Source: Acidipropionibacterium acidipropionici (GTDB taxonomy: Bacteria; Actinomycetota; Actinomycetes; Propionibacteriales; Propionibacteriaceae). From it: a stretch of 64,000 nucleotides of DNA. The notes beneath the pieces were generated by a model. That model ran no database searches. It saw only the letters and a list, made by a program, of their open reading frames with translations, and was not told the DNA's origin. The position numbers were made by a program, and so were the translations under genes. Below, piece after piece: positions 8,180 through 18,837 of the stretch (its first letter is position 1; every line of letters starts with the position of its first letter). The stretch lies in contig NZ_CP013126.1 of NCBI RefSeq assembly GCF_001441165.1, positions 1,331,551-1,395,550 of the forward strand, written 5' to 3'.

Positions 8180-9311
8180 TCAGGAGATCTGGTCGCCGAC
8201 CCTGGTGATCGGGATCGATACCGTCACCGACCAGTAGCCGTCCGACAGGCGGGTCTCCAGGGTGCCGCCGATGGCCTCGGCGCGTTCCCGCATCCCGACG
8301 ATCCCCAGCCCCTCGGGACGACCGCCTGCGGGGTCGTCCTGGGAGGTCGCATTGCGGAAGGCCACCGCGATCCGGTGCTCCCCGGCGGACACCGTCGCCT
8401 CCGCGGGTTCGGCCGGGTCCCCGTACTGCTCCATATTGTTGAGGGCCTCGCGGGTGATCTTGCCCAGCGCGTCCGAGATGGCCGAGGGGAGGGTGTCGAC
8501 GTCGTGATCGGTGTAGATCTCCAGCTCGAAACCGGCTGTGGCCAGGCGCTCCGCCCCGTCCTGCAGTTCGCGGGAGAAAGAGGCCGGGGCTGACGACGTC
8601 TCGGCGACTCGCATCAGGGTCATGAGATTGTGCAGGTAGGTGGCGGTCCGGCTGCCCCTGGACGCGATGTCGGCGAGAATCTTCGCGGGGTCGACGTCGG
8701 CGTCTCCCCGGTTGAGGGCGTTCTGGGCGGCGGTGGCCTGGGTGACGATGGCCGACAGGTCGTGGGTGACGTTGTCGTGGAGCTCCGCGGCGATCTCGCG
8801 GCGCTGGGCCTCGGCACGGGTGGCCAGACGTCGTCTCTCATTGAGCTGGGTGTTGCGCAGAGCCAGGCCGATGAGCCAGGGGAGGGGCGTAGAAGCCGAT
8901 CCAGACGATGGTGGCCTGGATCTGCTCGGCAACGCTCGCGGCGTTGCGGAAGGACAACCACACCGAGACGAGATATCCCCAGAGGGTCGTCGCCGACGCC
9001 GTCCAGAACTTCTCGTGCCAGGCGCACGAAAGGATGACGATCATCGGGGCGTAAAGGCTGGTGCCCACAAGACCGTTCGGAAGCCACGCCAGGCCCGTGA
9101 ACCCGACGCAGGTGATGATCGCCCCGATGCGGGGGTACCAGGCCGTGAACGCGGCACCGGCACAGGTGAGGATGCTGAGGAGAGCGGCGGTCACGGCGCC
9201 GTCACCGGGGCGGAACCCGATGGCGTCGATCACGACGAGCATGAGGGCCAGGCCGACCTCGACCAGACCACTGCCCAGGTAGTGGCGCAGGGTGGCGGTC
9301 CGGGAACTCAT
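8180..9311 (-). pseudogene. NarL-type sensor histidine kinase, frameshifted
   Basis: Two reading frames together encode a DesK/NarX-class kinase that closely parallels the intact kinase at 17356-18456. The N-terminal part (from 9311) has five or so membrane segments including AWYPRIGAIITCVGF. The C-terminal part has the HisKA_3 box ELHDNVTHDLSAI with the phosphoaccepting His, then an ATPase domain (EALNNMEQYG, GLGIVGMRERAEAIGG). Against the paralogue YALPW, this copy reads YAP then LPW in the next frame, because of one extra C in the run complementary to 8884-8887. TACGAT lies 7 nt before the ATG, so it had a leaderless promoter. No response regulator is adjacent. Confidence 0.8.
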
Positions 9312-9364: not shown

Positions 9365-10129
9365 TCACGAAGTGCTGGTGACGGCCGGCCTCGGATCTGC
9401 TTCGTGTCTCTGCTCCTGGTGGGCCGGGCCGAGCTCGACGCGCCCCGTGCAGCGATCGGCGACGTGGTCGCTGTGGGTGGCGATGAGGACGAGTGCCCCA
9501 GTGTCGGCGAGTTCTTGAAGGACGCCGAGGACGAGGTCGCGGTTGGCGTGGTCGAGGGCCGACGTCGGCTCATCGGCGAGCACGACGGACGGGTCCTTGA
9601 GGATGAGACGGGCCAGGGCCACGCGCTGCTGCTGCCCGCCCGACAGGGTGTAGATCATGGTTTTCTGCGCCTCGGGAAGCCCTACGCGTTCCAGCGCCTG
9701 GGTGATCATGGCCTCCCTGGCCTTCGAGGAGAGTCCCCGCCGGTTCCGCAGGGGCACCATGAGGTTGCGCCGCACATTCCAGGTCTCGACCAGACCGTAG
9801 TTCTGGAACAGGAATCCGAGGACCTCGCGCAGGCAGCTGCGCTCCCAGGAGCCCACATGATGGGGCGGCCCGCCGGTGAAGGACCAGGGCCCGTAGGTGA
9901 TTTGGCCGGCGTCGAACCCTTCGAGCAGGCCCACGCAGTTGAGCAGGGTGGTCTTGCCGGCGCCCGAGGGCCCGGTGATCGCGGTCATGGTGCCCGATTC
10001 GGCGGTGAAGGAGAACCCGTCCCACAGGGTCCGGTTCCCGAAGGTCTTGGTGAGGCCTGTCGCGGTGAGGGTGAAGGGGGCGTCCTTGAGCGGCGTCATC
10101 GTGACAGCGGTCGTGGTGATGGCGGTCAT
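9365..10129 (-). CDS. ABC transporter ATP-binding protein (MacB/LolD type, bacteriocin-immunity associated)
   Basis: 254 residues with a complete nucleotide-binding domain: Walker A GPSGAGKT (about residue 52), signature LSGGQQQR (about residue 163) and Walker B VVLADEP (about residue 184), with an H-loop in ATHSD. An atypical insert (TGGPPHHVGSWERSCLREV) precedes the Q-loop. It follows the broken 7TM membrane gene by 17 bp and has a strong AGGAG Shine-Dalgarno sequence. In lactococcin-972-type loci this ATPase energises the 7TM protein to export or pump out the bacteriocin. With its partner broken, it may have no working membrane half. Confidence 0.85.
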   Translation of the reverse strand: MTAITTTAVTMTPLKDAPFTLTATGLTKTFGNRTLWDGFSFTAESGTMTAITGPSGAGKTTLLNCVGLLEGFDAGQITYGPWSFTGGPPHHVGSWERSCLREVLGFLFQNYGLVETWNVRRNLMVPLRNRRGLSSKAREAMITQALERVGLPEAQKTMIYTLSGGQQQRVALARLILKDPSVVLADEPTSALDHANRDLVLGVLQELADTGALVLIATHSDHVADRCTGRVELGPAHQEQRHEADPRPAVTSTS

Positions 10130-10146: not shown

Positions 10147-12205
10147 TCAGGGACGCTTGATGAAGTCGGCGCGGGACCGGGTCTCGTAGACCCTCACGAA
10201 GACCGCGGCGACGCTGACCTGTGCTGCGACCAGGATGGCGGCTGCTGCGAGATCGCGGGGGAGGTGCATGCCGCCGATCATCCTGGTGGCGGTGGCTGTC
10301 AGGACGGCCAGGCCCAGATCTCCGGCCAGCAACGGCCCGTGCCGACGGGTGAAGCCGTAGCCGTGGAGGAGCTAGACGAAGCTGGTGCGCCGGTGCCGGT
10401 CGCAGTAGACGGCGGCGCTCACCATGGTCGCCAGGACCAGCACCACCATGCCGAGGGATATCCCGAAGACGTCCATGCGCTGCTCGAGTCTGGAGGCGGC
10501 CAGGGTCTCGGTGACGGCGTCGGCGGCGTTGTCGATGCCCTGGAAATGGCCTCGTATGCCGGCACTCGTCAGTCGCTGGTTAAGATCATCGGCATCAAAG
10601 AACAGCACAGAGTTCAGGGAAGTGTAGGAGAGGTATTCCATGGGGCCGATGAGCCCAGATGATGGTGAGACGACCGCTAGGACGGGATCGGTCAGTGATG
10701 TTCTCTCCTGGTCCTCCGCGGGAGAGGGATCGGTGCCTTTGAAGGTGAACAGTTGTTGTCCGGCGGCAGTGCGGATCACCCGGCCGTGGGGGGGCGCAAG
10801 GTGGCGTGGATTTAGGGGCGCCCAGCAGGCAGCTGTATTCCTTGAAGTATTTGGTGTAGGTGGCCAGCAGCGCGCCTACGTCACCGTGATAGGACGCGGG
10901 GACCAGCAGGGTGAAGCCATTCCGGGCGGTCGCGATATTGCGGATCCGGTGGCCGTCGGTGCCCAGGACGGGCTGGACACCGAGGTACTTCGGGTTGACG
11001 ATCATGGAGTTGGCTCCCTCGGGACCAGGTGGCGTGGTGCCATCGCCACCATTGGCGAGTTCGCCACCCTTGTATCCGGTCATGAGAACAGTTCCCTGCC
11101 GGTCCATGCGGGAGATGATGGAGGTCAGCGCCGGGGCGTCACGGAGGTCGTCGTCGTGTGTGCTGGCCGTACTGAGTCTGAGGGCATATGCAGGAGGCAT
11201 CTGAGACCATCGGCTCAATTCACGGGACGTTCGGCTGACGGCCTCGATGCGCCACATGGCTCCAGAGGTGCTTGCCAGCACCACCGCGAGCACTATCACC
11301 TGCGTGGCGGCGTCCAGCACCCCGTCGGCCAGGGGAGCGCGTTCGCCCTTGAGCACCTCGGGAATGCGGTGCCGCAGGGTTGCGACTCCGCCCAGCACGG
11401 TGACGAGGACGGCTGTCAGAAGAGCGAGGACCCCCAGACCTGTGCCCAGGAACCCGGCGAATCTCCAGACCTGATGGAACCTGGTGACCGCCCAGAGCAC
11501 CGGAGTGCCGATCAGTAGCAGGGCAGCGAGGCCGAGCCCGAAGGTTGCCCCTGCACTGCCGAGCTCGGCTCCCAGGATTGGCGCGCGACCGTAACCGTGC
11601 AGGCTCTTGATGGCGTGAGCCTTGCGGTTGGTGGTTCCCGAGTACGCCAAAGCCAAGGCGAGTGCGACGTACACGATGACGAAAGCAGCCCCGAGATTCG
11701 CCGGGCCCAAGGCGTACACGAAGATCTCAAAACCTGTGGCGGTCGAGTCATCCGCACTGATTCCAGCTTTGCGAAGATCGGCAAGGATCGACACCACCTG
11801 GGAGTGATCAGCGCTGGTGGCGTAGACGCCGCGCAAGTCCTGGGTGGTGATCCGGTCCGCCGGTGTGATCGTCGTTCTCTGAGACTGGGCAGAGAACGTT
11901 GGGTAGGAGTATCCCCCGGATCTGGCGAATGCGTCCCGGTTGCCGATGAAGGCGAACAGGGTCCTGCTCTGGAAGGAGTCGGTGTCCCCGGCCTGAACCT
12001 TGAAGATGTTGGTGTGCGATTGGAGAGCCGAAGCGCTGATCGCCTGGATGGCTGCTTCCTTGGACGGCGCGTTCACTCGGTCCACGGTGAATGCGGAGCG
12101 GGTTCCCATCGGCTGGGCCTCATCGACCGTGATGAACACCTGGAATGTCAGTATTCCAGTGAACAGGATTGAGATGAGAATGGAAGCCCTTGCGATCCAA
12201 TGCAC
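10147..12205 (-). pseudogene. Bacteriocin-associated 7TM integral membrane protein (TIGR01654/DUF1430 type), disrupted
   Basis: The reconstructed product is about 685 residues, the family's size. It has a first membrane helix (ILISILFTGILTFQVFIT), a long outer domain and two half-repeats, each with the motif LHGYG after a membrane segment (IKSLHGYG and LLHGYGFTRRHG). Two lesions break it. One is an extra base in a seven-G run at 10788-10794, which shifts the frame. The other is an in-frame TAG at 10372-10374 just before LLHGYG, probably a CAG to TAG change. The start is GTG at 12205 with a good Shine-Dalgarno sequence. Intact relatives give producer immunity or export for lactococcin-972-like bacteriocins. 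Confidence 0.8.
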
Positions 12206-12342: not shown

Positions 12343-12403
12343 TGACCTCGAACCGGATCCTTCCAGTGAGGTTTGTGGGTGGTCAAGGAGGAACCGGAAA
12401 CTC

Positions 12404-12438
12404 TGCCCGATCGGGTAGTGATTCTGCCCGATCGGGCA
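12404..12438 (+). promoter_or_regulatory. Paired palindromic operator, TGCCCGATCGGGCA type
   Basis: Box 1 (12404-12417) differs from the perfect box 2 (12425-12438) only by TA at its end; the centres are 21 bp apart, two helical turns. Box 2 is followed by AATTGTCGACATTTCGTAC, the same trailing sequence as before the response regulator gene. It lies 98 nt upstream of the peptide ORF at 12536 (+) and 62 nt upstream of the small ORF starting at 12342 (-), so it may serve both directions. Confidence 0.65.
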
Positions 12439-12535
12439 ATTGTCGACATTTCGTACTCCAGCCGGTCGGGCCCCTGTGGTCGGGCCGGGACGTGAGACCA
12501 TGTCGGAGAAGAACCGGTCCGACGATGGAGTTCCC

Positions 12536-12694
12536 ATGTCTGCCATCTCCCGATCCCGACGTCCTCGAATGCTCCGATTGGTGGCCACCAGCTTGACCGC
12601 CGTGATGCTCGCCGTCGCCAGCCCCGCCGTCGTGCATCCTGACGGCTGGTGCGACCGTTTTCCCTGGTGGCCCACCTGCCAGCGGGCCGTATGA
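12536..12694 (+). CDS. Small secreted peptide candidate with a two-cysteine mature segment
   Basis: 52 residues. A basic start (SRSRRPRM) and a hydrophobic core (LRLVATSLTAVMLAVASPAVV) form a typical Sec signal peptide. The remaining tail, HPDGWCDRFPWWPTCQRAV, is rich in Trp and Pro, with two cysteines eight residues apart that could form a disulfide ring once outside. The ATG at 12536 has GGAG at a good distance; an alternative ATG at 12500 would add 12 residues. It follows the paired operator at 12404 and overlaps the next ORF by ATGA. It could be a peptide pheromone sensed by the nearby kinase, or a bacteriocin. I recognise no family. Confidence 0.55.
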   Translation: MSAISRSRRPRMLRLVATSLTAVMLAVASPAVVHPDGWCDRFPWWPTCQRAV

Positions 12695-12831
12695 CCTGGT
12701 CAGCATCTGAAGGCGACGCCGACGCCCCTAACGCAGCCCTGGTCGACGAGATTTCCGGATGGCCAGACGAGCCTGGCTTCGGGGCCGACGACGTCCTGGA
12801 GGCTCTGGACGTCGGCCGCCAGGAACGGTGA
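12691..12831 (+). CDS. Small acidic protein coupled to the peptide gene
   Basis: 46 residues, strongly acidic, with no membrane segment. Its ATG overlaps the stop of the peptide gene (ATGA), which argues for real co-translation. The C-terminal DVLEALDVGRQER weakly resembles DVIFDGMRAGHAQEHE in the second small ORF of the pair at 18815-18973, which occupies the same position after another small ORF. It could be a chaperone, immunity or leader-like partner of the peptide; this is inference. Confidence 0.45.
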   Translation: MTWSASEGDADAPNAALVDEISGWPDEPGFGADDVLEALDVGRQER

Positions 12832-12850
12832 GCAGTGATACTTCGTCGCC

Positions 12851-14515
12851 TCAGCCCCGGCATGTCTTCAGTGCGGCGAGGGTCCTGTCCATGGTGGGGG
12901 TCTGCGCGTAGTCCTCGACGCCGAAGAGTTTCTGGAGGTCCGTCAGGTCGGTGCCCGCGCACCATGCGTGGGTGGAGTAGGTCAGCGAGTCGCCGGCCGG
13001 TGCTCCGAGCACCGTGGGTGGGGTGATGCCGCGTCCCGGCGCCGCACCGACGTCAGGCGGGTTCTCCAGACCCTTCGGGTGGATATTGCCGCCCATGGTG
13101 CCCGTGGTGGTCAGGCGTACCAGGCGGGGGAGGGCCTCGGGGTGGGGAGACTGGCTGTAGATCTGTGAGAGGGACGCGGCGGCGGCCGGCAGATACCCCT
13201 TGTCGGGAGCGGGGGCGCAGACCCTGACGTCCTGACCGGGCACCGTCTGGCAGGCGGTGTAGCCGTAGCGCTCAGCCCACTTCCGGTCGACGTCCTGGCT
13301 CGGCGGGCGTGGCACTGCGATCATCACGGCAAGACCGAGGATCAGGCAGGCCGGAGCCATCCAGATCCGGCCGGACCACCAGCCCGCGCAGGCTCCCAGT
13401 GCCGCGCCGATGGCCACCTCGGCCAGGACGAGGAGAGTGGGTGGCCAGCCGGCCAAGAACTCGGTGGCGACGACGTCGGCGCCCACCCCATGACGGGCCA
13501 GGTCGCCGGCAGTCACGAGGGCCATCGCCAGGGCCGGTGCGCCCACTGCGGCGACGGCCGTGGCCGCCGCTCTCCCGGCCGCCCGGGCGAGCAGCGTCCA
13601 GGCGGGGCGCGTGGAGAGCTGCTGCCATACTGCGACGCCGCTGCGCCATCGGTACTGGCCGCTCACCACTCCGAGCAGCACCGCGCAGGCCACGGCGATG
13701 AAGACCGAGGCGGGCACCTCGTCGCCCAGCAGGAGCCGGGGACTGCCACCCCACCAGGACAGTGACGTCATCCAGGGCCAGGCCGAGACCACCGCCACCA
13801 GGCAGGCCATCGGCACGGTGAGGGAGGCTCGCCTGAGGCCTCGGGTTCCAGAGCGTCGATGGGTCACAGCGTTCTTGCGGGGCTGTTGGGCCTTCGAGGT
13901 GAATGTCCGGGGAGCCCATCTCAAGCCGCGGGCGAAGGTCACGATCCCGGCAACACCGATCAGCAGGCACAGCGGGATGCTGAGGTTCGGCACGCCAGGG
14001 TCCAGGAATGCGTCCGCGGGTGCGTGCAGCGCCCCCCACAGTCCCAGGGGCAGTGTCGGGTGGAGGGGCCAGGAGAACGTCATCGATGCCATGGCAGCCA
14101 CGAGCGGAGTCACCCAGATGGCGGCCGGCGGCAGGACGGTCAGGCTCAGCAGGCCTAGGCCGAGCAGGGCGACGGCGTCGCGCCAGGTGGCCAGGAATCC
14201 CCATTCACCGCTGGTGGTGGGGAAGGTGGCCAGAGCAATGACCCCGGACACCAGGACCGCGATGCCCAGCAGCGTCCACCGGCGGGCCGCCAGGGAGCGC
14301 GGGGCAGCGCGGTCGGCGTCGGTCTCGGTGGTGAACATGAACAGCAGCGGGACGGCCGCGACGGTGGCCACCCACAGCGGCGCGACCTCCACCGTGCCCC
14401 CGTCGGCGGCGATGAGGAGCACCAGGCCGCGCACAGCCGCTGACGCGAGAACGGCCACCGTGATGCACGGCACGACGAGGTGATGGCGGGCCCACAGGGT
14501 GATGCCACGGCTCAC
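12851..14515 (-). CDS. ABC transporter membrane protein with an extracytoplasmic cysteine-containing tail
   Basis: 554 residues. About eleven or twelve hydrophobic segments fill residues 10-400. They are followed by a soluble tail of roughly 145 residues with four cysteines (ACQTVPG, VCAPAP, WCAGTD, TCRG), suited to two disulfides outside the cell. It is the last gene of a three-gene run and overlaps the ATPase stop by ATGA, which identifies it as the partner of that ATPase. Actinobacteria carry similar fused permeases of unknown substrate. It converges on the peptide pair at 12536-12831 with only 19 bp between. Confidence 0.7.
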   Translation of the reverse strand: MSRGITLWARHHLVVPCITVAVLASAAVRGLVLLIAADGGTVEVAPLWVATVAAVPLLFMFTTETDADRAAPRSLAARRWTLLGIAVLVSGVIALATFPTTSGEWGFLATWRDAVALLGLGLLSLTVLPPAAIWVTPLVAAMASMTFSWPLHPTLPLGLWGALHAPADAFLDPGVPNLSIPLCLLIGVAGIVTFARGLRWAPRTFTSKAQQPRKNAVTHRRSGTRGLRRASLTVPMACLVAVVSAWPWMTSLSWWGGSPRLLLGDEVPASVFIAVACAVLLGVVSGQYRWRSGVAVWQQLSTRPAWTLLARAAGRAAATAVAAVGAPALAMALVTAGDLARHGVGADVVATEFLAGWPPTLLVLAEVAIGAALGACAGWWSGRIWMAPACLILGLAVMIAVPRPPSQDVDRKWAERYGYTACQTVPGQDVRVCAPAPDKGYLPAAAASLSQIYSQSPHPEALPRLVRLTTTGTMGGNIHPKGLENPPDVGAAPGRGITPPTVLGAPAGDSLTYSTHAWCAGTDLTDLQKLFGVEDYAQTPTMDRTLAALKTCRG

Positions 14516-15210
14516 GGCGTCACCATCTCCAGATAGCGGGAGCGCACGGCCTCCAGATCGCGCGACCCGGCGAAGTCGTCGAAGGCCCCGCTGAAGACGA
14601 ACCGGCTCTGATCCATCACGGTCAGGGTGTCGGCATGGTCGAGCACGTCCTCGACGATGTGGGTCGACACGATCGTGATCGCGTTGGCTGCAACGCGTCG
14701 CAGCACTACCGACAGCGATTCACGCTGGGCTACGTCCAGACCGGCCGAAGGTTCGTCGAGGATCACCAGGGACGGGCTGCCCACCAGAGCCGAGCCGATG
14801 CCGACCCGCCGTCGCATCCCGCCGGACAGCGCTGAGATGCGGTCGTCGGCACGGTCGGTGAGAGATACCAGGTCGAGGACGCGGTCCACCTCGGCCGGGG
14901 TCTTGGGGTCGGGGATGCGGTGCAACCAGCACATGTAGGCCAAGTGCTCGCGCACCGTGAATCGTGATCTGCCGAGGTTCTCCTGGGGGCAGTAGCCCAG
15001 CTGTTCGCGGATCGCTGTCCCGGTGTGCCCGTCGAGCTCGACGGTTCCCGACGCTGGCTGCAGGGTGGCGATGGCGCGCAGCAGTGAGGACTTCCCCGCG
15101 CCGTTGGGGCCCAGCAGCGCGTGGAAGCCCTCATCAAGCCGCCAGGACACCGCGTCGACGGCGGTCCGCTTCCGGTATTGCACCGTCAGCTCGTCGACCG
15201 TGAGTGTCAT
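14512..15210 (-). CDS. ABC transporter ATP-binding protein
   Basis: 232 residues. Walker A GPNGAGKS (about residue 36), Q-loop YCPQEN, signature LSGGMRRRVGIG (about residue 132), Walker B LVILDEPSAGLD and H-loop STH are all present, so it should hydrolyse ATP. The subtype resembles CcmA/drug or peptide export ATPases that pair with a separate permease. The ATG at 15210 has a perfect AAGGAGG Shine-Dalgarno sequence; the longer open frame upstream lies in the GT87 gene. It overlaps both neighbours by ATGA, so the three genes form one tightly coupled operon. Confidence 0.9.
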   Translation of the reverse strand: MTLTVDELTVQYRKRTAVDAVSWRLDEGFHALLGPNGAGKSSLLRAIATLQPASGTVELDGHTGTAIREQLGYCPQENLGRSRFTVREHLAYMCWLHRIPDPKTPAEVDRVLDLVSLTDRADDRISALSGGMRRRVGIGSALVGSPSLVILDEPSAGLDVAQRESLSVVLRRVAANAITIVSTHIVEDVLDHADTLTVMDQSRFVFSGAFDDFAGSRDLEAVRSRYLEMVTP

Positions 15211-16496
15211 GAGGTTCCCTCCTTGACATGCGTACTGACCAGTCCGGCAGGTGCCAGCCTTCCCGGGGGTTCTGGCTGTGGGCCGGGAATCGGTGGCGAA
15301 GACTGGAGCATCGACTCTCGCACGGCGCGGACGCCGGCTGTGATGAGGATCCCGAAGGTGGCCAGGGGAATGGCGCTGCTGGCCCACCACGCGACGACGC
15401 TCCGGGGATCACGTGCGGTGGCGTGAAGGGCCCGGCAGACGAGCTGTGGCCCCAGCACAGCGATCGGCAGCGCAACGATGCCGAGCAGCCACCGGATAGC
15501 CCTGCTCCTGATGACGGTGGAGGCCCACATCGCGATGAATGGCATCCACACCCAGTGGTGATTCCAGGACACTGGTGAGATGAGCAGCATTACGGCGGTT
15601 CCGACGCCGAGGGATGCGGTGGGGTGTGCGCGGTCTCCGGGCAGGGCGAGGAATCCGGCGATCACAGTGACGACCACCAAGGCTGCCCAGGCGATCGATA
15701 CGATCGCCGGCTGGCCTCCGGGGGTCGGGACGACGAGCTTGGCTGCCCGCCGGATGACGGCGTTGAGGGAGGAGTTGGCCACGAAACCGACGTCGCCGAC
15801 CCTTCCCGGGTCCCAGGCAAGACGCCCCCAGTAGAGCCCTGATTCCACGGGGAGGAGCAGGACGCCGACGGTGATCGAACCGGTGAAGCCGCAACCCATG
15901 CCAAGGATGAATCTCCAGTCCCGTTGCCGCAGGGCGACGAGTCCCAGGGCCAAGGGAGTGAGTTTGATCCCGCCACAGAGACCGGCCAGAACTCCTCCGG
16001 TGAATCGTCGGTCGGTTGTGAGAGCGAACAGGCAGACGGCCGCGAGGATGAGGTTGATCTGTCCTTTCGCGAGAGTCTCCCACACTGGGTTGAGACAACA
16101 CATCAGGGTCGCACCGAGAGAGAGAAAGCACCATGGATGAGAGTTCCGAAAATTCACGAATCGGTGAGGTGCCAGGTCGATAATCTGTGACGTCAGGTAG
16201 ACCGTGGCGACACATGACAGGAACTCCATCATGGCTGCGGATGACGTGGGACGCAGGAGCGCCCCCGGTGCGAAGACCAGACCGGCGAAGGGCGGGTAGG
16301 TGAAGGGCAGCGCGGGCCGTGGAGCGTAGAGGGCTCCAGTCCGTCTCAGGACGTCGGAGCCTCCCTGCCAGTACACGTTGAAATCGATCGGTACCAGCTG
16401 TCGAGAGAGGATGTGGATCAAAAGGAACAGCATGCCCCCGACCGCCACGACTCTGGCGGAATCGGCTCTGCTCTTGCTCGACGTGAACAGGGTCAC
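15207..16496 (-). CDS. GT87-family (GT-C) polyprenol-phosphate-mannose-dependent mannosyltransferase
   Basis: 429 residues with around ten membrane helices. GT87 landmarks are visible: DFNVYWQGG near residue 40 (the acidic catalytic loop region), FTYPPFAGLVFAP near residue 65, KGQINLILAA near residue 145 and SPVSWNHHWVWMP near residue 305. In mycobacteria this family (PimE) adds mannose to phosphatidylinositol mannosides outside the membrane. It is first in an operon with an ABC exporter, which is unusual and suggests export or decoration of a glycosylated lipid or peptide. The GTG at 16496 sits very close to its GGAG; the ATG at 16433 is an alternative start. Confidence 0.75.
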   Translation of the reverse strand: MTLFTSSKSRADSARVVAVGGMLFLLIHILSRQLVPIDFNVYWQGGSDVLRRTGALYAPRPALPFTYPPFAGLVFAPGALLRPTSSAAMMEFLSCVATVYLTSQIIDLAPHRFVNFRNSHPWCFLSLGATLMCCLNPVWETLAKGQINLILAAVCLFALTTDRRFTGGVLAGLCGGIKLTPLALGLVALRQRDWRFILGMGCGFTGSITVGVLLLPVESGLYWGRLAWDPGRVGDVGFVANSSLNAVIRRAAKLVVPTPGGQPAIVSIAWAALVVVTVIAGFLALPGDRAHPTASLGVGTAVMLLISPVSWNHHWVWMPFIAMWASTVIRSRAIRWLLGIVALPIAVLGPQLVCRALHATARDPRSVVAWWASSAIPLATFGILITAGVRAVRESMLQSSPPIPGPQPEPPGRLAPAGLVSTHVKEGTS

Positions 16497-16652
16497 TCCT
16501 TCGTCGTGGAACTCCCGTCCGAGATCTGCCGACGTGGTTAAGGTCGCCTGCCCTGGTGATTTCGCGTCATTCGGCCTCGAGAATCGGTCTGCTGGTTCTG
16601 GCGCGACGTTATGGCGTGGGGTGTGTGCTCAGCAAGAGGCTCAGGCAAACTC

Positions 16653-16686
16653 TGCCCGATCGGGCACAAAATTGCCCGATCGGGCA
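16653..16686 (+). promoter_or_regulatory. Paired palindromic operator upstream of the response regulator
   Basis: Two perfect TGCCCGATCGGGCA boxes (16653-16666 and 16673-16686) have centres 20 bp apart. They are followed by AATTGTCGACATTTCGTAC, as at 12438. The boxes end 64 nt before the regulator ATG and also lie upstream of the divergent GT87 operon. The spacing on one helix face suits cooperative binding of a dimeric regulator; LuxR-type regulators bind such dyads. Confidence 0.7.
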
Positions 16687-16737
16687 ATTGTCGACATTTC
16701 GTACCCCGGGCCGTCGGGGCGGGCCGTCCCTGGCGGC

Positions 16738-16743
16738 TATGAT
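16738..16743 (+). promoter_or_regulatory. -10 element of a leaderless promoter for the response regulator
   Basis: TATGAT, the consensus -10 hexamer, ends 6 nt before the ATG at 16750. Transcription would start at or next to the A of ATG. No Shine-Dalgarno sequence is present. There is no good -35, which fits activator dependence on the boxes upstream. Confidence 0.55.
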
Positions 16744-16749
16744 CCGGCT

Positions 16750-17394
16750 ATGAGCGCTGGGGGTATCAGAGTCGGGATCTGCGACGACAGCCAGGTGGTG
16801 CGTCGCCAGATGGGGACCTACCTCTCCGCCGCCCCGGACATCGTGGTGTGCGGGATGTACGGGTCCGGCCCTGACGCGATCGCCGGCGTTTCCCGGGATG
16901 ACATTGAGGTGATGCTGCTCGACGTCCGGATGCCCGGTATGACGGGGCCCGCCGTAGCGTCGGAGCTGGCGGCGTCGGGGAGTGGCTGCAAGATCCTGTA
17001 CGTCACCTCGTATCCCGACGAGGTGCCGGTCCGCGGCGCCCTGCGGCAGACGGTGCTCGGTGCGCTGACCAAGGATGTGAGTCCTGAGAATCTGGTGGCG
17101 GCCGTCCGCCTGGTGGCGTCGGGCGTATCCCTGCTGGCTCCCGAGTTCATCCGGGAGTCCGCGGCTGGCGGGGAGGGCCTGATGGACTGGTCGGCCGACC
17201 CGCGGGAGCGCGAGGTGTTCAGGCTCGTCCAGACAGGTGCGACGAATGCGCGTATCGCCGAGGAACTGAACATGTCGACATCGTGGGCGAAGCAGACGAT
17301 CTCGGCACTGTGCCGCCGTTTCGGCGTGAAGGGAAGGGCCGCGCTCGCGGCGTACTCAGGAGGCGCTGCCTTCGACCATGGCGTCAGGAATTGA
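16750..17394 (+). CDS. NarL/FixJ-family response regulator
   Basis: 214 residues. The receiver domain (about 6-125) has the acidic pair in ICDDS, the phosphorylation Asp in LLDVRMPG, Thr in YVTSYPD and Lys in LTKDVSPE. A LuxR-type helix-turn-helix (about 148-205: DPREREVFRLVQ, NARIAEELNMSTSWAKQTISALCRRFGV) follows. It pairs with the kinase on the opposite strand, and the two 3' ends overlap by 39 bp. Palindromic boxes upstream suggest autoregulation. As the only such regulator in the island, it may also have served the frameshifted kinase at 8180-9311. Confidence 0.92.
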   Translation: MSAGGIRVGICDDSQVVRRQMGTYLSAAPDIVVCGMYGSGPDAIAGVSRDDIEVMLLDVRMPGMTGPAVASELAASGSGCKILYVTSYPDEVPVRGALRQTVLGALTKDVSPENLVAAVRLVASGVSLLAPEFIRESAAGGEGLMDWSADPREREVFRLVQTGATNARIAEELNMSTSWAKQTISALCRRFGVKGRAALAAYSGGAAFDHGVRN

Positions 17395-18456
17395 GACCCT
17401 GACCGTCCAGCGGCCGTGGGACAGTCGCGTGTCAAGGGTGCCGCCGAGGCCTTCCGCCCGGTCCCTCATGCCGGTGATGCCCAGATCGTCTCCGTGGTAG
17501 GCGGTGGTCGTGGCGTTGGTGAACGTTGCCCTGAGACCGCTGCTGTCGGCTCGCGCCGTCACCCTGCACAGGCCATCAGGGGAGCCGTGCCGGAGGATGT
17601 TGTTGAATGCTTCGTGGGCGATGTGCCCCAGGGCGCTCGACATCGCCGGTGATATCGAGTCGACGCCGTCGCCGATTTCGGGCTCGACGCTGAAGCCGGC
17701 GTCGGCAAGGCGGGCGAGGCCGTTTCTGATCTCGGTGGAGAATGACAATGGTGGCGATGCGATTCCGGCTCGCATGAGGCTCACCATGTGTCGTACATAG
17801 GCGGAACTGCGGCGGCTCATGGCTGCGATGTCGACCAGTGCGTCGTCCTTGTCGATAGTGGGATCTATCCGGGTGGCTTCCGCGGTCATGGTGATGAGTG
17901 CCAGCTCGTGCGTGACGTTGTCGTGCAGCTCGTCGGCGATTTCCCGGCGCTGAGCCTCGGCGCGAGCCGCGATCCGGCGACGCTCGACGAACTGGGTGTT
18001 GCGCAGGGCCAGCCCGACAACCCACGGGAGAGCGTAGACGCCGAGCCACACGACGATGGCCTGGAGGTCCTCGCGCATCGTCGTGGTGTTGCGGAAGGAC
18101 AGCCACAATGACACCCCATATCCCCAGGCTGAGGTCGCCACCGCCGTCCAGAACTCCTCATGCCAGGCGCACGAGAGGATGACGATCATCAGGGCATACA
18201 GGGTGGGGCCGACCATGTTGTCGGGCAGCAGTGCCAAACCGCCGAAACCCAGACAGGCGATGACCGCGCCGATGCGGGGATGCCAGGCCGTCAGCGCGGC
18301 ACCTCCGCAGGCGATGATGCCCAGGATCAGCGCGAGCGTGGCGTCATAGCCGGGGTGGAAGGGCAATGCGTCGATGGCCAGGAGGACGATGGCGAGGGTC
18401 ACCTCCATGGCGCCGCTGCTGAGTGTGCGGTGCAGAAGTCCTCTGCGGAGTGCCAT
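17356..18456 (-). CDS. NarL-type sensor histidine kinase (DesK/NarX class)
   Basis: 366 residues. The N-terminal 150 residues hold about five or six membrane helices with little extracellular loop, so the signal is probably sensed in or at the membrane. The HisKA_3 dimerisation box reads ELHDNVTHELALI (about residues 193-205) with His as phosphoacceptor. The ATPase domain has EAFNNILRHG (N box) and DDLGITGMRDRAEGLGG (G box). TAGCAT lies 7 nt before the ATG, so it is probably leaderless. A single TGCCCGATCGGGCA box is 88 nt upstream. It is the intact paralogue of the kinase at 8180-9311. Confidence 0.92.
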   Translation of the reverse strand: MALRRGLLHRTLSSGAMEVTLAIVLLAIDALPFHPGYDATLALILGIIACGGAALTAWHPRIGAVIACLGFGGLALLPDNMVGPTLYALMIVILSCAWHEEFWTAVATSAWGYGVSLWLSFRNTTTMREDLQAIVVWLGVYALPWVVGLALRNTQFVERRRIAARAEAQRREIADELHDNVTHELALITMTAEATRIDPTIDKDDALVDIAAMSRRSSAYVRHMVSLMRAGIASPPLSFSTEIRNGLARLADAGFSVEPEIGDGVDSISPAMSSALGHIAHEAFNNILRHGSPDGLCRVTARADSSGLRATFTNATTTAYHGDDLGITGMRDRAEGLGGTLDTRLSHGRWTVRVSIPDAMVEGSAS

Positions 18457-18543
18457 GAGTCAGATGCTAAGGGTCCGCGCGTGAGATGGTGCGCCCCGTG
18501 GCGAGATCCGGTGACTGGCCGGAGGCGTCAATTTGTCGACAAT

Positions 18544-18557
18544 TGCCCGATCGGGCA
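18544..18557 (-). promoter_or_regulatory. Palindromic operator upstream of the intact kinase
   Basis: A perfect TGCCCGATCGGGCA box. Its asymmetric flank AATTGTCGAC reads toward the kinase gene on the minus strand, the same orientation relative to the gene as in the other two sites. The second box expected about 20 bp farther upstream is only a degenerate GGATCGAAC. The small ORF pair at 18661 lies on the other side. Confidence 0.65.
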
Positions 18558-18660
18558 GAGTTCGATCCATTCGCTCGACATGGCAAAGGCGGGGGCGTAG
18601 CGTCCCCGGTGCAAATTGGCCGCTAGTCGTGGTCAACGGAAATATGAATGGAGACCATTC

Positions 18661-18837
18661 ATGGTAACTGAATCAGCAATTGCCGCATTATCGATCGGCG
18701 GACTGGTGGTGGGCATCGTCGTTGCGTGCGTGATCCTCATCAGTCTGATCGTCACCGCATACAACACGACGAAGATTTGCCGGGAACTCCAGGAGATCAA
18801 GGAGCGGTTTGCACATGACAATCACCTCGCGTCCTGA
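18661..18837 (+). CDS. Small single-pass membrane protein
   Basis: 58 residues. A long hydrophobic helix (ALSIGGLVVGIVVACVILISLIVTAY, about residues 8-34) is followed by a charged amphipathic tail (KICRELQEIKERFAHDNH) that could form a short coiled coil. GGAG precedes the ATG at a good distance. It overlaps the next ORF by 23 bp. It lies upstream of the kinase on the opposite strand, 103 bp from the shared palindromic box. It may be a small regulator of the kinase or a membrane-active peptide; no family is recognised. Confidence 0.6.
   Translation: MVTESAIAALSIGGLVVGIVVACVILISLIVTAYNTTKICRELQEIKERFAHDNHLAS

Follow-up and report, generated by a model that had tools for sequence, protein, structure and literature searches.

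A clustered 14-bp palindrome as the predicted operator of a two-component system with a conserved peptide partner in Acidipropionibacterium acidipropionici

The window analyzed here is a 64,000-nt stretch of A. acidipropionici DNA (contig NZ_CP013126.1, positions 1,331,551 to 1,395,550), and the features described are collected in Table 1. They comprise a NarL/LuxR-type response regulator, a HisKA_3 histidine kinase, a candidate secreted peptide, two operons that include ABC transporter genes, and a small membrane protein gene, together with copies of the palindrome TGCCCGATCGGGCA (the box), which is accompanied on one side by an asymmetric trailer, AATTGTCGAC. The boxes start at 12404 (one mismatch, TGCCCGATCGGGTA), 12425, 16653, 16673, and 18544, which are the three sites reported in the initial annotation, including the spacing it gave for the pair in front of the response regulator; overall, tandem boxes in the window are spaced by 20–21 bp.

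Table 1. Genes, boxes, and predicted promoter elements at the locus (window coordinates)
Feature	Coordinates	Strand	Remarks
Second kinase copy	8180..9311	−	Frameshifted
ABC transporter ATPase	9365..10129	−	Best match TIGR03608 (bacteriocin export ABC), under cut-off
Permease	10595..12205	−	Like bacteriocin-associated integral membrane protein (TIGR01654, under cut-off); probably frameshifted
Predicted permease/ABC operon promoter	12357..12386	−	−35 TTGACC (12381–12386), 18 nt, −10 AAGGAT (12357–12362); 17-nt offset from box A
Box pair A	12404..12438	−	12404–12417 (1 mismatch) and 12425–12438, 21 bp apart; faces permease/ABC operon (minus), trailer toward peptide (plus)
Secreted peptide candidate	12500..12694	+	64 aa (ATG 12500) or 52 aa (ATG 12536); mature end ...HPDGWCDRFPWWPTCQRAV; homologues in G002, G003 (two), G004
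Large membrane protein	12851..14515	−	No family match; third gene of GT87 operon
ABC transporter ATPase	14512..15210	−	Second gene of GT87 operon
GT87 glycosyltransferase	15207..16496	−	Pfam PF09594; first gene of divergent operon
Predicted GT87/ABC operon promoter	16606..16635	−	−35 TTGCTG (16630–16635), 18 nt, −10 TAACGT (16606–16611)
Box pair B	16653..16686	.	16653–16666 and 16673–16686, 20 bp apart; between GT87/ABC operon (minus) and response regulator (plus)
Putative regulator −10	16738..16743	+	TATGAT; predicted leaderless mRNA; conserved in orthologues
NarL/LuxR-type response regulator	16750..17394	+	Proposed box binder; Response_reg and GerE domains; covariation with boxes
HisKA_3 histidine kinase	17356..18456	−	Hydrophobic N-terminal half; own −10 TAGCAT (18464–18469) just before ATG
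Box C	18544..18557	+	Best read as operator of small membrane protein gene (plus), not kinase
Predicted small-membrane-protein promoter	18575..18603	+	−35 TCGACA (18575–18580), 17 nt, −10 TAGCGT (18598–18603); G002 orthologue TTGACA-16-TATGGT
58-aa single-span membrane protein	18661..18837	+	Conserved next to kinase in G003 and G004; similar ORF in G002

A search of the whole genome (3,651,382 bp) returned four exact copies of TGCCCGATCGGGCA, all inside one 6-kb stretch of the window, which bears out the earlier expectation that the box does not occur at random. Sites with one mismatch numbered two: the 12404 copy and a site at 3404690, which lies inside a long coding ORF and was rejected as a member of the regulon. 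When three mismatches were allowed, the window held 10 TGCCCGATCGGGCA-like sites; this count equals the chance level, and therefore only exact copies are informative. The 23-mer TGCCCGATCGGGCAATTGTCGAC (box plus trailer) occurs in the genome three times without mismatch, each time at this locus. We also rejected the idea that TGCCCGATCGGGCA is a mobile repeat, because it is restricted to regulator loci and its promoter context is fixed.

Analysis of the sequences flanking the boxes revealed a clear polarity. On the non-trailer side of all 12 distinct sites, a −35/−10 promoter begins exactly 17 nt from the box; the aligned sites read GA[G/C]TT or a close variant, followed by a −35-like hexamer (TTGnnn, TCGACn, or TGTACn), 16–18 nt, and nAnnnT. 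This pattern was spotted by eye and then scored on the same sites, with an all-offset scan and shuffles as the control. Specifically, the scan gave a single peak at 17 (z 6.3, 12 distinct sites), and with nine less related sites added, none of 1,000 shuffles reached the observed mean at any offset (12.6 versus ≤8.9). The implied box center, near −60, is where a class-I activator would sit. On the trailer side, the offset scan found no −10 at a consistent distance, and the best offsets there reflect the trailer itself; lacking a consistently placed −10, the trailer was rejected as a promoter. The initial annotation had held that the trailer points toward a gene and marks the direction of control. 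In the window, it does lie on the peptide, regulator, and kinase side, but as a general rule this fails in relatives, where the trailer also faces a convergent gene from its 3′ end (L051:5045, L052:5433) and is absent from the sites of an Acidipropionibacterium MAG (G002) and from the TACC-type boxes of A. thoenii; as to control, the fixed-geometry promoter stands on the opposite side of every box. At all trailer-bearing sites, AATTGTCGACA (with GTCGAC or GTTGAC) is conserved from one paralogous site to another with no promoter recognizable there, and it may be an extra regulator contact or the site of another factor.

Because the fixed-geometry promoter lies opposite the trailer at every box, the best-supported candidate targets, as judged from promoter placement, are the divergent genes, i.e., the bacteriocin-type permease/ABC operon, the GT87/ABC operon, and the 58-aa membrane protein. 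In the first of these operons, the TIGR03608 score was 209.6 against a cut-off of 254.85 bits and the TIGR01654 score (G004) 54.2 against 189.35 bits, so that both cut-offs were missed. The permease is probably frameshifted, since it has one extra base near 10794 relative to G004. With its frameshifted kinase copy and broken permease frame, this operon appears to be in decay (a sequencing error is possible), and one of the three predicted output arms is probably non-functional in this genome. The box promoters of relatives are directed at an ABC/FtsX-like pair together with an I36-inhibitor-like secreted protein, at a 161-aa secreted protein, and at ABC genes. Outlying boxes in A. jensenii and A. 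thoenii (L052:5433, L056:6195-6229) stand before genes for a 220-aa protein and for the secreted 161-aa protein, the latter shorter in A. jensenii; no confident family match was obtained for either product, and both genes are candidate effector or bacteriocin genes.

The regulator has the make-up of the NarL/FixJ group, scoring above the cut-off for both PF00072 (65 bits) and PF00196 (32 bits). The kinase scored above the cut-off for PF07730 and below it for PF02518 (14 bits), with typical N and G boxes readable. Among regulator genes, the start codon lies 53–63 nt from the box, and TATGnT is located 6 nt before the start codon and 41–51 nt from the box. Because this hexamer precedes each regulator start within that range, autoregulation is possible and, judged from these distances, plausible; the variable −10 spacing counts against the overall model. 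Kinase genes carry TAnnnT 7 nt before the ATG regardless of the distance to the box (74, 125, 341, or 450 nt). Since the box-to-kinase spacing varies while the −10 stays by the ATG, the box is unlikely to drive the kinase in a fixed geometry, and we rejected the kinase as a box target, although the initial annotation had placed it under box C. Within the genus, all the regulator and kinase genes of this type that were examined have a −10-like hexamer 6–7 nt ahead of the start codon. The arrangement suggests that the regulator and kinase mRNAs are leaderless.

Comparison with relatives revealed that TGCCCGATCGGGCAATTGTCGAC recurs at the same genes in A. jensenii DSM 20535 (G001), A. thoenii DSM 20276 (G003), and G004, with extra loci beyond the shared genes in the first two, and that boxes lie upstream of regulator orthologues in all five Acidipropionibacterium genomes examined. 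In A. thoenii, a paralogous regulator (61% identical) is preceded by two perfect TACCCGATCGGGTA palindromes, 21 bp apart, and its recognition helix reads SRVKQI in place of SWAKQT. The G002 regulator also has SRVKQI, with one box of mixed TG/TA type. The covariation of box variants with regulator paralogues is suggestive rather than proof, the cases being few. A third A. thoenii copy (65% identical) has no box upstream of its own gene, with boxes near its kinase, and in A. jensenii the regulator and boxes are present with no peptide detected. A scan for the tandem element in one genome per species (84,980 species) returned eight stretches, five in Acidipropionibacterium and three in unrelated settings. 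The tandem-box matches in Krasilnikoviella, a Chloroflexi MAG, and a Phycisphaerae MAG were set aside, as were matches with three mismatches in other genera, with no related genes found nearby in either case. Separately, several species of genus g11 (L019-L023) carry TGCCCGATCGGGCA within a conserved stretch, GACTGCCCGATCGGGCAAGTGACGACCAGAAAGTGGGC, without this regulator nearby. The proposed tie between the box and the regulator/kinase/peptide system stands, given that the box is confined to the locus in the genome, recurs at the same genes in relatives, and follows the paralogues.

Of the two possible peptide starts in the window, ATG 12536 has a GGAG site and agrees with the homologues, and ATG 12500 lies 61 nt from the box with no good −10 at the expected place. 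Box control of the window's own peptide is uncertain. In G004, other sequence replaces the peptide at the equivalent of box A, and an intact homologue adjoins the kinase. Five peptides of this family within the genus share a signal-like stretch and C-x3-PWWP-x-C-[QH]R, and four of them stand beside this kinase type. A FitA/VapB-like antitoxin gene, complete in G004 (77 aa; L057:7335-7568), is represented after the peptide by its tail (12649–12831), which makes the peptide region the meeting point of two broken modules.

To follow the peptide beyond the genus, we used a peptide-only profile (C-x3-P-x-W-P-x-C after a signal-like segment), extended once with family matches and scoring few candidates per genome. 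In an order-wide sample (E up to 0.001), it matched 20 places outside the genus but within the family, and 18 of these adjoin a HisKA_3 kinase; the two exceptions are among the weakest matches. Seventeen of the regions were read at length: the peptide and kinase genes diverge in every one, and 13 have a detected LuxR-type regulator next to the kinase. Since the genomes concerned have only 3–19 HisKA_3 kinases in 2.5–4.2 Mb, the probability that a peptide would fall within a few hundred bases of one by chance is well below 1% for each locus. A class-wide sample gave three weak matches only, without a kinase, and matches were confined to this bacterial family in the samples searched. The link between peptide, sensor, and regulator, already proposed from the window, is strongly supported by this conserved gene neighborhood, with the peptide family a consistent partner of the kinase type.

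Tandem 14-bp palindromes were also sought without a preset motif; the known sites came back, along with new ones. At four loci of genus g23, tandem TGNCC-N4-GGNCA palindromes spaced by 21–22 bp end 52, 53, 53, and 51 nt upstream of the peptide start codon (at one locus, the second possible start), and shuffling produced such pairs in 0–1 of 300 trials per locus. Further box copies in g23 lie beyond the regulator; at three loci a similar small gene follows them, and one of the products scored above the Pfam cut-off for Colicin_immun. No recognizable tandem boxes were found at the peptide in 13 of 17 loci outside the genus. The claim that boxes control the peptide gene thus finds support in another genus, though the window's own copy has no convincing −10. 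The view of the locus as one circuit holds in outline, most strongly through these g23 boxes, with its direction and targets corrected.

Taken together, we regard the following mechanism as probable. TGCCCGATCGGGCA would be the operator of the response regulator, which the neighboring HisKA_3 kinase would phosphorylate. We infer that the regulator binds the box as a dimer, with tandem boxes two helical turns apart taking two dimers, and that it would then activate sigma-A promoters on the GA[G/C]TT side of the box, where the −35 begins at a distance of 17 nt, the box center near −60 matching a class-I arrangement. The three promoters so activated would drive the permease/ABC operon, the GT87/ABC operon, and the small membrane protein, with secreted proteins and ABC/FtsX exporters as additional targets in relatives. 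As the signal, a secreted, cysteine-bracketed peptide of the 12500–12694 family is the most likely candidate, and the placement of the peptide itself under such boxes in another genus would form a feedback loop. With less confidence, we lean toward a broader reading in which an undescribed disulfide-closed peptide family (C-x3-P-x-W-P-x-C) is the pheromone for HisKA_3/LuxR-type systems across the actinobacterial family, with each regulator recognizing a set of tandem 14-bp palindromes of its own near −60 and controlling the peptide and competition genes.

The targets resemble export and immunity functions (the TIGR01654/TIGR03608-like pair, the I36-like protein, Colicin_immun), and ABC transporters, a bacteriocin-associated permease, and immunity-like proteins would also be expected of a real circuit that senses foreign antimicrobial peptides or envelope stress in a Lia/Bce-like detoxification, with the peptide a co-regulated bacteriocin or defense product instead of the ligand. 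The peptide is cationic with two cysteines, like many bacteriocins, and A. jensenii has the boxes and regulator without a detected peptide. However, the peptide gene adjoins the kinase across genera even at loci lacking a nearby exporter or immunity gene; because this adjacency persists, the peptide fits a ligand better than a cargo, and we consider foreign-peptide sensing rather unlikely.

Less likely still is the original reading, in which the trailer sets the direction and the boxes control peptide, regulator, and kinase. Conservation of the trailer between paralogous sites speaks for it, as do the distances from the box to the regulator starts (53–63 nt), to peptide ATG 12500, and to the peptide starts of the other genus (51–53 nt), but these are outweighed by the lack of a consistent −10 on the trailer side, by trailers that no gene follows or that are missing at some regulator sites, and by the unconserved kinase spacing. 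Finally, the same palindrome in the unrelated setting of g11 could mean that a different regulator encoded elsewhere binds the box, the two-component genes being merely among its targets; box variants that follow the regulator paralogues and tandem 14-bp palindromes that recur beside related systems of another genus make this the least probable of the alternatives. Activation by the locus's own regulator, with the peptide as the most likely signal, is the reading that we retain.

In the literature searched, with subscription journals mostly outside reach, we found neither TGCCCGATCGGGCA in a regulatory sense, in line with the initial annotation, nor a comparable peptide system. Peptide signaling is poorly documented in these bacteria, and in a 2016 review of quorum sensing in actinobacteria, AI-2 is the only signal listed for Propionibacterium (PMC4748050). 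From the conserved sequence features, we infer an undescribed peptide-sensing two-component family that controls competition genes. If the peptide is the kinase ligand, then peptide, kinase, regulator, and an operator of known spacing would make up a compact, directly testable module, and bacteriocin-type gene sets of dairy and environmental bacteria would probably be under its control. The operator rule (box, GA[G/C]TT, 17 nt to −35) also predicts targets in new genomes.

Among known systems, NarXL, UhpAB, and MadSR (NarL/FixJ with HisKA_3) are alike in their Response_reg plus GerE/HisKA_3 domains and, as predicted here, in a palindromic operator and activation upstream of the −35, whereas the system described here falls under every NCBIfam equivalog cut-off and has a conserved peptide gene divergent from the kinase. 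NarL heptamer pairs have a 2-bp center, and the box here is a 14-bp palindrome without it. The peptide quorum-sensing systems of Firmicutes (Agr, ComDE, Blp) appear similar in outline, with a small predicted-secreted peptide beside a kinase and regulator, feedback on the peptide gene (here, in another genus), and bacteriocin-type outputs. AgrB (PF04647) was absent from the 10 genomes tested, mostly peptide carriers, and unlike in ComC/Blp, the peptide alignments have no GG before the mature end and show a signal-like hydrophobic segment instead. Agr and ComDE have kinases of the AgrC/ComD type and regulators of the LytTR type, in contrast to the HisKA_3 kinase and LuxR-type regulator found here. 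The ABC/permease pair at box A resembles both models of the lactococcin 972-type export/immunity pair (TIGR03608 ATPase, TIGR01654 membrane protein), each below its cut-off, and the window peptide had no family match. A Bce-type permease (FtsX) domain was not found above the Pfam cut-off at the window permease; a two-component system linked to ABC transporters is common to the Bce/Lia modules and the present system, which differs in having its own conserved peptide beside the kinase.
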